In this document: piece after piece, positions 2,560 to 11,034 of the stretch
How positions within the stretch are numbered: position 1 is the stretch's first letter
How the letters are laid out: every line of letters starts with the position of its first letter
From: Pseudomonadota bacterium
GTDB lineage: Bacteria > Oederibacteriota > Muellerivitia > Muellerivitales > Muellerivitaceae
Direction: 5' to 3'
DNA length: 40,323 nt
NCBI GenBank assembly: GCA_021324075.1
Contig: JAJPJW010000060.1
Location: forward strand, 1-40,323
Notes under the pieces: generated by a model
What the model saw: only the letters and a program-made list of their open reading frames with translations
What the model was told of the DNA's origin: nothing
Databases searched by the model: none
Made by a program: the position numbers and the translations under genes

Positions 2560-2589
2560 TTGTCCAAGATGGGTCCCCAGATTGGACAA
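2560..2589 (+). repeat. 30-bp 11-8-11 palindromic site, copy 1: TTGTCCAAGAT-GGGTCCCC-AGATTGGACAA
   Basis: One of four copies with identical central GGGTCCCC and TTGTCCA/TGGACAA arms. Confidence 0.9.
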
Positions 2590-2601
2590 TGAATTTAGCC
2601 G

Positions 2602-3030
2602 TCAGTCTACGGACCAAGCATTTTTCGACCCCAGAAGAAGCACCTTGTGTCTTTTCGGGTTTTTCATTTTTTTATACTTCGTAATTTTTAGAGCCGTTTT
2701 ATTCTTTTCGTTTTTCTTCAATTTATTAATCTCTTTTTTTCTCCACCGCTCAAATTCATTCCTCAGTTCCATCAACTTCAAATACGGATTTTTAAGGTTC
2801 ATTTCCTTAATCCGGCGGGAAGCGCTTGCCGAGCCAAAACCTTTCGAAGCAAGAAAAGGTCCCCAAAAATTTGTAACCGGAATGCCTTCCAACAAACAAT
2901 AAATTTGATCCAACACCCACCATTTAGCTTCAATCTGGGGAATAGTTCCGTACATCCTTCCTCTATCTTTTACTCCTTTGTTAAAGTCGTCGATATATAA
3001 CCTAATTTGTTCAAGTTTGCTTTGCTTCAA
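2602..3030 (-). CDS. Hypothetical protein, cassette gene 1
   Basis: TTG start preceded by AGGAGG; AT-rich; lies between site copies 1 and 2; stop is 12 nt from copy 1. Confidence 0.65.
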   Translation of the reverse strand: MKQSKLEQIRLYIDDFNKGVKDRGRMYGTIPQIEAKWWVLDQIYCLLEGIPVTNFWGPFLASKGFGSASASRRIKEMNLKNPYLKLMELRNEFERWRKKEINKLKKNEKNKTALKITKYKKMKNPKRHKVLLLGSKNAWSVD

Positions 3031-3072
3031 ATCTTCCTCCTGTATTGGACGGTACCGATTTCATTTTCCCCT

Positions 3073-3102
3073 TTGTCCAATCCGGGTCCCCGCCGTGGAC
3101 AA
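3073..3102 (+). repeat. 30-bp 11-8-11 palindromic site, copy 2: TTGTCCAATCC-GGGTCCCC-GCCGTGGACAA
   Basis: Same core and orientation as copy 1; inner CGGG/CCCG pair. Confidence 0.9.
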
Positions 3103-3117
3103 CCTTTTCGGAAAACA

Positions 3118-3390
3118 TTAATGATTCCAGTGGTGAAAGTACCCAACAAAATCAGGTCCCAAAACGAGAGCGCCGATGAAGAAACCAACAAGCCAAGGGA
3201 ATAAGAAAACGGCCGCGCCTTTGAATTTGTATTTTTTAAAAGCGATGACCAAACCCAGGATCAAAATCAAGAACGATAAAATGATCGCGGATTTGGAACC
3301 AAGGGTATTAAAAAGGAGGTAACCAATCCAAGTAAGGTTACCGGTAACAAAGCCAACCGCACCTCCCAAGATCAAAACTTTCAAATACAT
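3118..3390 (-). CDS. Small integral membrane protein, cassette gene 2
   Basis: MYLKVLILGGAVGFVTGNLTW..., several TM segments; RBS-like AGGGGGG upstream of the ATG at 3390. The longer ORF (to 3450) only translates the repeat. Confidence 0.65.
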   Translation of the reverse strand: MYLKVLILGGAVGFVTGNLTWIGYLLFNTLGSKSAIILSFLILILGLVIAFKKYKFKGAAVFLFPWLVGFFIGALVLGPDFVGYFHHWNH

Positions 3391-3420
3391 TTCGAAATAC
3401 CCCCCTAGCCATTTTTCCTT

Positions 3421-3450
3421 TTGTCCACGATGGGTCCCCAGAGTGGACAA
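3421..3450 (+). repeat. 30-bp 11-8-11 palindromic site, copy 3: TTGTCCACGAT-GGGTCCCC-AGAGTGGACAA
   Basis: Same core and orientation; outer A-T pair of copy 1 replaced by C-G on both arms. Confidence 0.9.
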
Positions 3451-3452
3451 TC

Positions 3453-3925
3453 TTACGGATTACTAACACCACCTTTCGAACGGAGGATTCTTTCTATTTC
3501 CCCTTTTTCGCCGATACTCCTTATGAATTGGGAGGGTGGCATTGGAAAAAAATCAGGAGCATGCAAAAGAAAAATAAAAGTTTCCCCGGAAAGCTTTTTA
3601 GAATCTCTAAGCGACCTTATCCACATGGGCCAATCGGGAAGAATCAGGGTTTTCGGGAGCTTCTTGCTGTCCCCCTTTAGAGTTTTTTCCTTATCAACGA
3701 TAACGTGATATCGAATTGTTTTACCTGAGTGTGGTGATGTCTTGGCCTTTCGTCGACTATTTCGTGGCCTGAAGCATCGACCATGTCCACCTTCACCACT
3801 TTCCCAACAATGATATAGTCCGCCTGAGCCACAAGTTCAGAAAGAGGCGTTGGTTTAATTTTCGTTGCATGGGCAAATGCGACAAAGCTTAGCATCACCG
3901 CGATTAACAATAATGATTTTTTCAT
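3453..3925 (-). pseudogene. Secreted protein, cassette gene 3, interrupted by a -1 frameshift at an A6 tract
   Basis: N-terminus MKKSLLLIAVMLSFVAFAHA (signal peptide) to ...ITLSLIRKKL*; the shifted frame continues EKTLKGDSKKLPKTLILPDWPMW...SKGGVSNP* and stops at 3453, 2 nt from site copy 3. Confidence 0.6.
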
Positions 3926-3948
3926 TCGATGCATTCCTTCAAACAACC

Positions 3949-3978
3949 CTGTTTATTGCGGGTCCCCGCCGTGGACAG
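3949..3978 (+). repeat. 30-bp 11-8-11 palindromic site, copy 4, degenerate left arm: CTGTTTATTGC-GGGTCCCC-GCCGTGGACAG
   Basis: Identical core and right arm nearly identical to copy 2; left arm diverged. Confidence 0.8.
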
Positions 3979-5689: not shown

Positions 5690-6631
5690 TCAACCTTTGG
5701 AGACAGCCTTGGATTTAGGCTGGATGGATTCAAATAGCTTGGAAAGCGACGCCTCTACATCCTTGAAAAATCCCATCCCCGCCTTTCCCTCCGAAGTCTT
5801 ATCTTTGATGGTGTCCAATTCGCCATAAAGATCCTTGAAATCCTGTGCGGTCCCATAACCCAGGGCCTGGGCGAACTCCAGATAGGATCGGGCATCGGAA
5901 AGGAGTTGGCCCAGCTTTTTATTATCGTCAGCGGAACGGGTTTTATTTTCCGAAAGCTTTTTCGCGTCAGACAATTCGTCCTGAGCCGCCACGACGGGAA
6001 GTGGAATGATATTGTCGGTCAAAACTAGGGTGTCGAGGGCCGTTTGCAGGGTTTCCTTAGCCTTATCCGTCTTACCATCATCAATGTATTTGACCGCTTT
6101 TTTGATGGCGTCCGGATAGGTGGCTAATGGAATATTGGAAACCTGTATGACCGTTTCACTGCGTAGGGCATCCAGGATTTCCCGGGCGTCCTGAACCTTC
6201 CCTTCCGCTAAAAGGTCCTGCGCCTTAATTCGTTCAGTTTTGACCTGGTCAATATCCGCATAGAGGTCATAAGTGGTCTCGGTAACATTATTAGGCGCTA
6301 AGGCCAGGTTTGGATCACGGGCCAGGATCAAATCCAATTTCCCCGTAGCCCGTTCCAGGGCCTTGATGGCCTTGTCCTTGTCGTTTTCATCCAGGTATTT
6401 CAAGGCCTCCCTTGTTTCCCAGATAGCATCCATAGCTTCAGAAGTGATCTGTTTCCGCTTCTCGGTTACCTTAACTTCCCCCTTATCCCCCTGCTTTTCC
6501 AGCTTGTCGTTCATTTGGGGTGTGGCGGTTGGAGAAGCCTTGGGATGGGTTGGATTGTCGGCCTGGGTGATCGAAGGATACCCAAAAGCCAACGCCGCGA
6601 GAATGGTTGATTGGATCAATAAATGTTTCAT
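5690..6631 (-). CDS. YfdX family periplasmic protein
   Basis: Signal peptide; YfdX-like repeats ALKYLDENDKDKAIKALERATGKLDLIL, IPLATYPDAIKKAVKYIDDGKTDKAKETL, NIIPLPVVAAQ. Confidence 0.85.
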   Translation of the reverse strand: MKHLLIQSTILAALAFGYPSITQADNPTHPKASPTATPQMNDKLEKQGDKGEVKVTEKRKQITSEAMDAIWETREALKYLDENDKDKAIKALERATGKLDLILARDPNLALAPNNVTETTYDLYADIDQVKTERIKAQDLLAEGKVQDAREILDALRSETVIQVSNIPLATYPDAIKKAVKYIDDGKTDKAKETLQTALDTLVLTDNIIPLPVVAAQDELSDAKKLSENKTRSADDNKKLGQLLSDARSYLEFAQALGYGTAQDFKDLYGELDTIKDKTSEGKAGMGFFKDVEASLSKLFESIQPKSKAVSKG

Positions 6632-6767
6632 GGTTTTCCTCCTTGTTCAAAAGTATTAAAACCATCTATTGTTCCGGCAACTCCTTCATCAACTTTGAAA
6701 AATTAATTAAGAACCTGTTTTTAAAAAATCAAGGCTAGAAATTTTTCATTTTTCGAGACTCTCATTT

Positions 6768-7655
6768 TCACCGCCCAGTAACTACCGGCGATCCGAATGT
6801 CTTGCAACGGACGATGTTTTTACCGTTCTTCTTAGCTTCATACATCAAAAGGTCGGCGCTATGGACGATGTCGTCAATTTTTTCAGGGATGTCGAAATAG
6901 GTCACAACCCCCATGCTGAGGGTCACCATTGGCATTTCCTCCTTGATGCCTTCGTCCACCGCCCTTTGCAATTTAAGGCTTAAGTCTTCTGCCGCTTCCG
7001 GGCCGGTTTCTGTAAATAAGACGACGAACTCATCCCCACCAATGCGTCCCACCAGATCACTGGACCGCACCTCGTTCTTGAGGATCGCCGAGACTTTCTT
7101 GAGGAGCTTGTCGCCCATCAAGTGCCCGTGGGTATCATTGATCCTCTTGAAATTGTCCAGGTCCAGGAAACAGAGGGTGAAGGGATGACCGTAACGGATA
7201 GAACGTTCACGCTCGGCTTCGGCGGCCTCAAAAAAGGCGGACGAGCTGAGAAGCCCGGTAAGGGCATCGGTTTTCGATTTTTGATAAGCTTTTTCCAGTT
7301 CGGCTTTCAAGGCCGCCAGGACATAGCAAACGGCGGCGAAATAAAAAATGATGGCGGCGGTGTCCCAAAGGACGATCCAAGGATGGGGGAAAAGGAAGGG
7401 ATGGATCAGGTAATCCACGATCAGGTAGCTGGCGCTTAAGGTGGAAAGGAAGAGTCCGGACCTTAAGCCCACGTTCCAAGTTGTCAGGGCGACCGGAACC
7501 AACAGGAAAACTGAAAGATGGAGAAGGCCACCGATCAGAAAGTCCAAGAAGTCGATGAAAAATATAAAAAGTAACGAGAAGCCGATAACCCCTTTTTTGG
7601 ACAGGGAAGAGATTATCAATTTTGAAACAGGAAATTTTTCAATCCCGAAAGGCAT
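6768..7655 (-). CDS. Membrane-anchored GGDEF-domain diguanylate cyclase
   Basis: N-terminal TM helices; DALTGLLSS, CFLDLDNFKRINDTHGH, RIGGDEFVVLF. Confidence 0.95.
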   Translation of the reverse strand: MPFGIEKFPVSKLIISSLSKKGVIGFSLLFIFFIDFLDFLIGGLLHLSVFLLVPVALTTWNVGLRSGLFLSTLSASYLIVDYLIHPFLFPHPWIVLWDTAAIIFYFAAVCYVLAALKAELEKAYQKSKTDALTGLLSSSAFFEAAEAERERSIRYGHPFTLCFLDLDNFKRINDTHGHLMGDKLLKKVSAILKNEVRSSDLVGRIGGDEFVVLFTETGPEAAEDLSLKLQRAVDEGIKEEMPMVTLSMGVVTYFDIPEKIDDIVHSADLLMYEAKKNGKNIVRCKTFGSPVVTGR

Positions 7656-7890
7656 TTAGGACCGCCTCAGGCTCAAAAAGCCAAAGCCGGGATTCCGCCG
7701 AAAGGCGGGTGGCTTCCAAATGGGTCTTTTGGCGGTTTTCGGTCTTGATCGTCTTTTTGGGTAAATCTCCGATACGCTTCCGAAAGGAAACGCCTAAGGC
7801 GCCCGAATGGAGGCCGTTTTAAAAATCGTTTGTCATTCCTTGATTGATTAAGGTCCATGACAACCTACCTGAATCTTTATTGAAGCAGGA

Positions 7891-7929
7891 AAGGCAGGCC
7901 GCCCGGGTTAAGCCCCAAGGGCCTGCCTT
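7891..7929 (-). terminator. Hairpin downstream of hsp20, possible terminator
   Basis: AAGGCAGGCC/GGCCTGCCTT 10-bp arms; weak T tract. Confidence 0.45.
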
Positions 7930-7939
7930 GCTCTTCCTT

Positions 7940-8386
7940 TCAGCCTGCCGTAACGGTGATTTGCCTGGGTTTTGCTTCCTCACTCTTGGGGACGGTGATT
8001 TCCAGGATGCCGTCCTTGACCGAGGCCTTGATCTTGTCGGCCTGGATCAGCTGGGGAAGGGAGAAACTGCGTTGGAAAGTTCCATAAGCCCTTTCCAACC
8101 GGTGGAAATTGCCTTTTTCCACGTCATACCGGGCTTTTTTCTCGCCCGAGATGGTCAGGATATTCTCGGCCAACGAGATTTTAATGTCCTCTTGCCTCAT
8201 CCCCGGCACTTCGGCGTAAAAACGGTATTCTTCTTTGGCCTCCTCCACATCCACGGAGGGGATCCATCCGGTTCCTAAACCCTGAAGGTCAAATTCGGGC
8301 CGCATTCCCAGGACATTGTCGAACAGGCGGTCCCATTGATTTTTGTCCAGCTTTAAACCCGATTTCAAAAGTCCCAAACCATTCAT
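7940..8386 (-). CDS. Hsp20 family small heat-shock protein
   Basis: Alpha-crystallin core: VDVEEAKEEYRFYAEVPGMRQEDIKISLAENILTISGEK...VKDGILEITVPK. Confidence 0.95.
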   Translation of the reverse strand: MNGLGLLKSGLKLDKNQWDRLFDNVLGMRPEFDLQGLGTGWIPSVDVEEAKEEYRFYAEVPGMRQEDIKISLAENILTISGEKKARYDVEKGNFHRLERAYGTFQRSFSLPQLIQADKIKASVKDGILEITVPKSEEAKPRQITVTAG

Positions 8387-10680: not shown

Positions 10681-10979
10681 TGGTGGGGCATCCTGGATTC
10701 GAACCAGGGACCAAGGCATTCAGGTTGGTGCCGCTTACGCGGGCTCCCCGGACTATCTCTTCACCCAAATTTCAGGGTGTGGGACGCTTAAACGCGGTGA
10801 TTAAGGGGTCTATACCCCTCCGCTAGTCTCTGCACCTTCCCCCGGTGTACCGGGGGCTTGGCTCAGGATTGCCCGTCACCGGGTTTCCCTGAATTCATCC
10901 CATTTCATTCCCTGGCTTTCACCAGGGATGCACAGCTTCCGCTATGAGTGCCCTGCTCTAACCGCTGAGCTAATGCCCC
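10681..10979 (-). tRNA. tRNA with CAU anticodon (probably Ile2, elongator Met not excluded; not initiator), interrupted by an intron; exons 10944-10979 and 10681-10720, encoded CCA
   Basis: Exons join to GGGGCATTAGCTCAGCGGTTAGAGCAGGGCACTCAT|AATGCCTTGGTCCCTGGTTCGAATCCAGGATGCCCCACCA: 7-bp acceptor, GCTC/GAGC D stem, GGGCA/TGCCT anticodon stem, CCTGG/CCAGG T stem. Confidence 0.95.
10721..10943 (-). ncRNA. Group I self-splicing intron (223 nt) in tRNA(CAU), inserted between positions 36 and 37
   Basis: P1 CAU^AGC-GGAA-GCUGUG with U.G at the 5' splice site; P2 CCCUGG/CCAGGG; P3 UGGGAUG/CGUCCCA; P4 CAGG/CCUG; P5 CCCG-GUGA-CGGG; Q AAUCCUGAGCC; R CAGAGACUAG and S AGAUAGUCC (P7 GACUA/UAGUC); P8 CACCC/GGGUG; P9 CCGC-GUAA-GCGG; terminal omega-G. 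Confidence 0.93.
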
Positions 10980-11034
10980 AATTTTAAAGAGTGTCATTCT
11001 AAGACAGAATGACCCTTTCAACAAACTATCAGCC

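Follow-up and report, generated by a model that had tools for sequence, protein, structure and literature searches.

Short 11-8-11 sites bound a putative system of trans-mobilised gene cassettes in one order of candidate division FCPU426

Integrons are the classic example of how a genome gathers individual genes into an array. Should a candidate phylum be doing likewise with sites that are simpler and unrelated, then the capture of genes into arrays has arisen more than once. The DNA analysed here (the window, a whole stretch of 40,323 nucleotides) raises this question at 2560-3978, where three small genes alternate with four short palindromic sites. A preliminary description made from the sequence had proposed that these are cassettes bounded by recombination sites and mobilised in trans. 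Are the sites really recombination sites, do the genes between them move, and what could move them?

The three-cassette array of the window

The array comprises four co-oriented 30-bp sites of 11-8-11 layout, whose orientation was read from the asymmetric core centre, TC. All lie on the minus strand. Site 1 (2560-2589; forward sequence TTGTCCAAGATGGGTCCCCAGATTGGACAA, gene-sense TTGTCCAATCT-GGGGACCC-ATCTTGGACAA) is located 3' of gene 1, site 2 (3073-3102; forward TTGTCCAATCCGGGTCCCCGCCGTGGACAA, gene-sense TTGTCCACGGC-GGGGACCC-GGATTGGACAA) 3' of gene 2, and site 3 (3421-3450; forward TTGTCCACGATGGGTCCCCAGAGTGGACAA, gene-sense TTGTCCACTCT-GGGGACCC-ATCGTGGACAA) 3' of gene 3. These three match the family pattern exactly. 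Site 4 (3949-3978; forward CTGTTTATTGCGGGTCCCCGCCGTGGACAG), the outermost upstream site of the array when read in gene-sense, matches with 2 mismatches only, because its left arm, which faces gene 3, has decayed (GCAATAAACAG). Hence the positions and the common orientation previously given for the four sites hold, with the fourth no longer intact. The sites are beyond chance: at up to 3 mismatches, the whole window gave 7 strand-wise pattern matches against 0.00 in 100 dinucleotide shuffles.

Each of the three intervals contains one small minus-strand gene, as had been described, except that the third is frameshifted. Gene 1 (2602..3030) starts with TTG as listed and encodes a 142-aa hypothetical protein with no Pfam match. 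Gene 2 (3118..3390, ATG at 3390) encodes a small hydrophobic protein, a probable membrane protein, with no Pfam match above the family cut-off. Gene 3 (about 3453..3925) encodes a secreted-type protein whose signal-peptide half and C-terminal half lie in different frames (program-listed ORFs 3677-3946 and 3453-3626), so that it is either a pseudogene or an assembly error. The stops of genes 1, 2 and 3 are 12, 15 and 2 nt from their sites and the starts 42, 30 and ~24 nt from the next site, in agreement with the earlier observation that stops are near one site and starts further from the next. The cassettes are also AT-rich, as had been said, with a GC content of 0.39-0.43 compared with 0.56 for the whole window. 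Elsewhere in the window, a Group I catalytic intron (Rfam RF00028, 68 bits) is present at 10728-10996 on the minus strand.

The decayed site 4 and the frameshifted gene 3 suggest that the array no longer moves. Moreover, no homologue of the window cassettes was found among the fetched loci of related genomes, and no recombinase was found adjoining the array. Taken together, these four features suggest a remnant, and the window array is probably a small three-cassette relic of a larger system rather than an active array.

Site family and array anatomy in related genomes

The genome of the window has four further sites on three other contigs, and co-oriented arrays were found in relatives of the same genus and of the same family. 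At no more than 1 mismatch, 81 sites were counted in genome G003 and 39 in G001, followed by G002 (10), G000 and G004 (5 each), G006 (4), G005 (3), and G007 and G008 (1 each). With a weight matrix, 216 sites were recovered from the fetched contigs, and shuffled DNA gave none at the same threshold. No sites were detected in the 50 genomes searched outside the order, or in the phages, plasmids and viral contigs searched. The matches of a genome_contigs scan were FCPU426 MAGs, one MAG matching G004, and one Omnitrophica contig. The last was discounted: about 2 chance matches to the 19-base pattern are expected in 257 Gb on both strands, and the site is isolated and low-scoring. Among the genomes compared, all of them fragmented MAGs with one MAG per species, the site system was confined to a single order of FCPU426, a candidate division of uncultured bacteria.

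Read in gene-sense, the family consensus has the form TTGTCCACGAC-GGGGACCC-NNNNTGGACAA, with conserved arm, core and variable arm in this order. The arms do vary, as had been noted, but unequally: the conserved arm adjoins the stop of a gene, while the variable arm adjoins the start of the following one. Likewise, the core had been described as invariant, and it is GGGGACCC at sites 1-3 of the window, whereas the family has several core variants (GGGTCCCC is the commonest; GGCTCCCC, GGTTCCCC and others also occur).

Arrays of this family have a strict polarity. Adjacent sites shared the same orientation in 133 of 133 pairs, with a median spacing of 807 bp, and the longest ORF was directed at the conserved arm in 119 cassettes and the opposite way in 12. 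The median distance from stop to site was 22 nt. Even among isolated sites, 19 of the 33 came after a gene stop, compared with ~6% at random. One outcome named beforehand as contrary to the cassette proposal, plain REP elements with no intervening genes, was not encountered, the sites of the relatives being mostly in co-oriented, gene-bearing arrays. Cassettes with a called gene mostly carry one gene of at least 60 aa, and some carry two or more, including toxin-antitoxin (TA) pairs. A cargo scan of 114 proteins gave PIN (10), BrnT (3), Phd/YefM (2) and many unknowns; in this respect, the cargo resembles integron cargo. The arrays provide some 100 candidate cassette proteins, of which many have no known function.

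Site-bounded shuffling of cassettes

In whole-contig BLAST comparisons, homologous stretches start and stop inside the sites, although flanking sequence was available on both sides. Cassette homologues were found in unrelated contexts, both within and between genera. Within G001, L037:1196-1790 and L044:11569-12164 are homologous from site to site at 93.7% identity, and within G003 so are L109 and L119 (92.1%). Between different genera, L043 (G001) and L112 (G003) share 80.2% over 1.9 kb, and L047 (G001) and L120 (G003) share 87.7%. Shared upstream DNA was detected for 19 site pairs (17 families) and shared downstream DNA for 24 pairs (13 families). The latter count was taken after removal of intron pairs: 20 of 44 shared-downstream pairs were excluded as the product of group II intron insertion, not of cassette exchange. 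No site pair shared both its upstream and its downstream neighbour, and the fully conserved synteny that would likewise have spoken against mobility is therefore absent. As far as can be read from these contigs, cassette order is not conserved among the genomes compared. This shuffling, with homology ending inside the sites, argues for the proposal that the units act as mobile cassettes with recombination-type sites at their boundaries, and comparative genomics suggests that cassettes can be excised.

The position of the breakpoint was less sharply defined. Positions 16-19 of the core go with the cassette upstream (p=0.047) and positions 20-23 with the one downstream (p=0.005), both values being uncorrected and modest. 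On this modest indication, the breakpoint may lie in the core or at its 3' edge. The recent copies L109 and L119 differ also in the variable arm, which means that not every breakpoint is clean. The two arms of a site vary independently of each other, with arm pairing equal to the shuffled expectation at every position, although single sites can nonetheless fold. Such independence is expected for the arms of different cassettes read as double-stranded DNA, not for a selected hairpin, and a hairpin function was rejected on the absence of covariation.

Group II introns also home on the sites. They begin one nucleotide 3' of a site at no fewer than 8 places in G001, G003 and G004, contain RVT_1/GIIM maturase and Rfam group II catalytic domains, and are oriented the same way as the cassette genes. 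Introns after or within sites are located in L117 (about 6098-8043), L055 (4767) and L118 (351), and further ones in L047, L038, L050, L056, L111, L145 and L015. In L117 the intron splits a site, and its 5' exon TTGTCCACGATG and 3' exon GGGACCCATCGTGGACAA show that the flanks join to a normal site.

Could the sites be immobile after all, as REP-like elements or terminators at gene ends, with nothing more than ordinary mosaicism around them? They are indeed palindromic, intergenic and usually 3' of genes, and group II introns insert alongside them as alongside terminator hairpins. We nevertheless consider this improbable. None of the 4 window sites matches an intrinsic terminator (a GC-rich hairpin plus a T run), the arms do not covary, and no Y1 transposase (RAYT-type, TnpA_REP-type) is encoded in G000 or in the site-richest genome G003. 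Furthermore, the homology is bounded by sites at both ends of the unit and the orientation is uniform.

In our judgement, the sites very likely belong to a system of gene cassettes that are mobilised in trans through site-specific recombination, with a tyrosine recombinase as the probable enzyme. In gene-sense, the mobile unit would most likely run from the variable arm NNNNTGGACAA through the gene or genes to the conserved arm TTGTCCACGAC plus the core GGGGACCC, and a putative circular form would contain a single full-length 30-bp site. The site-specific recombinase would recognise both inverted arms in double-stranded form, with strand exchange in the core or at the core edge. GA/TC, as the only asymmetric part of the core, would set the orientation, which would lead to one-way arrays. 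The enzyme acting in trans may be of the tyrosine type; inverted arms, a short polar core and exchange in the core, the last on modest segment p-values, are what is expected of tyrosine-recombinase sites and are found here. For tests, the system offers a compact site together with a few recombinases.

Candidate recombinases and relation to known systems

No recombinase gene was found adjoining any array, save for a trio in G006 at a distance of ~6 kb and an integrase in G003 ~0.4 kb from a weak site. A serine recombinase was considered because only the central 2 bp of the core are asymmetric; it is attractive, yet none exists in G001. In addition, G003 has no Y1 and no IS110 recombinase. From these absences, a tyrosine recombinase in trans is the best inference, and G001 and G003 each have several; the enzyme may instead belong to an undescribed class. 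The PF00589 proteins of nine genomes were sorted into clusters. Cluster A consists of integrases of ~370 aa, most of which adjoin tRNA genes with an HTH excisionase-like gene; hence they are probably island integrases, and the G003 integrase near the weak site is of this type. Their copy number tracks the number of sites, but also genome size, and cluster A was set aside as the cassette recombinase on both grounds.

Cluster C is a tandem XerC/D-like pair accompanied by a 750-770-aa protein without a Pfam match, and the three genes together are possibly a mobile element. Within the order, the pair is present only in G001, G003 and G006 (L178 11.6-18.7 kb, L180 and L181). It is unlinked to the arrays: no site is nearby, and it adjoins a repeated motif of its own. 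The pair is the most attractive candidate recombinase, though nothing ties it to the sites. The motif GATGGCGAACCCCCCTATCTACGCATCA recurs upstream of recombinase pairs or trios and elsewhere, some copies being followed downstream by a matching GATAGGG. Copies are located in L178 (14443-15054, five copies 134-156 bp apart), L180 (7012), L183 (9710), L190 (8320) and L124 (14394). The motif regions of L178 and L180 gave no Rfam match, and the motif is possibly a structured RNA or a recombination site. RIT-like trios of tandem tyrosine recombinases were found at G003:C16 (L182 118-3385) and at G006:C19 (L183 10617-13913), the latter being the one ~6 kb from a cassette array.

Cluster B is a lone divergent Xer, one per genome (L191:4794-5936 on the minus strand, and orthologues). 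A conserved dif-like palindrome of AACTTCTATAATTACAGTTATAGAAGTT type lies directly upstream of its gene in G002, G003, G005 and G008. Other genomes of the phylum mostly match XerC/D-like queries twice, unlike the single Xer of this order. These data bear on whether the sites are pdif, with passenger genes moved by the host chromosomal Xer at copies of dif. The 11-bp inverted arms around a short core, the scattered trans-mobilised modules without a recombinase of their own, and the TA cargo all agree with such a reading. It is, however, largely refuted, and we regard it as very improbable. The order has only the one divergent Xer per genome, and within it the tandem-pair XerC/D-like query recovered nothing but the pair element itself at E<=1e-30. 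The predicted host dif next to the lone Xer gene, itself a putative assignment, is unlike the cassette site TTGTCCACGAC-8-GTCGTGGACAA, which bears out the earlier statement that the sites are not dif, and the lone site of G008 is not at a GC-skew switch. Finally, the cassettes are uniform in orientation with an 8-bp core, whereas pdif modules have a 6-bp spacer and exist in a C and a D configuration, which are opposite to each other (PMC13141974).

It is even less probable that the sites are attC of an unrecognised degenerate integron or CALIN. The form of the array, the spacing between gene and site, and the TA-rich cargo would fit, as would the group II introns, which are known at attC sites, usually in the opposite orientation (PMC7923331). 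However, both RYYYAAC and GTTRRRY boxes were found in 0 of the 216 sites, the sites are 30 bp long, and their arms lack the covariation expected of a folded attC, so the earlier conclusion that they are not attC stands. Likewise, 0 of 10 representative recombinases reach the integron integrase cut-off TIGR02249, an absence that is not absolute in MAGs. HattCI and IntegronFinder are expected to miss the system because both search for attC and IntI. The least credible reading, in which each gene is a small transposon with sites as terminal inverted repeats for a DDE transposase, would explain why units delimited by sites turn up at various locations, some as near-identical copies in the same genome. 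Adjacent units, however, have a site in common rather than a pair apiece, and the sites have a polar core all in one direction.

The trans-mobilised cassette system favoured above may be a third, independently evolved one beside integrons and dif modules, a view toward which we lean with some reserve. It would be distinguished by superintegron-sized chromosomal arrays, a 30-bp site of dsDNA type, a dedicated recombinase (with tandem pair C as the candidate) and site-homing group II introns. No description of such a system was found in the open-access literature searched.

Compared with integrons, superintegrons and CALINs, the arrays described here are likewise long, one-way successions of small genes with a recombination site after each. 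They also resemble them in cassette exchange between arrays, TA cargo, group II introns at the sites, and arrays without a neighbouring integrase. They differ in the 30-bp 11-8-11 site, whose arms do not covary, in having no R-boxes and no IntI found, and in a breakpoint that appears to fall within the core of a site of dsDNA type rather than in an R box. As with group IIC-attC introns, insertion occurs directly 3' of, or within, a palindromic cassette site; here the introns have the same orientation as the cassette genes and use a non-attC site. The pdif modules of Acinetobacter plasmids are likewise genes bounded by short recombinase-type sites, and they are moved in trans, as the present cassettes appear to be, whereas here the sites are unlike the host dif, uniform in orientation, built on an 8-bp core, and arranged in chromosomal superarrays. 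Among plasmid Xer sites, cer has the 11-8-11 geometry in common with the present sites, but it occurs singly, acts in plasmid resolution and has accessory sequences, whereas here many sites of this geometry bound cassettes.
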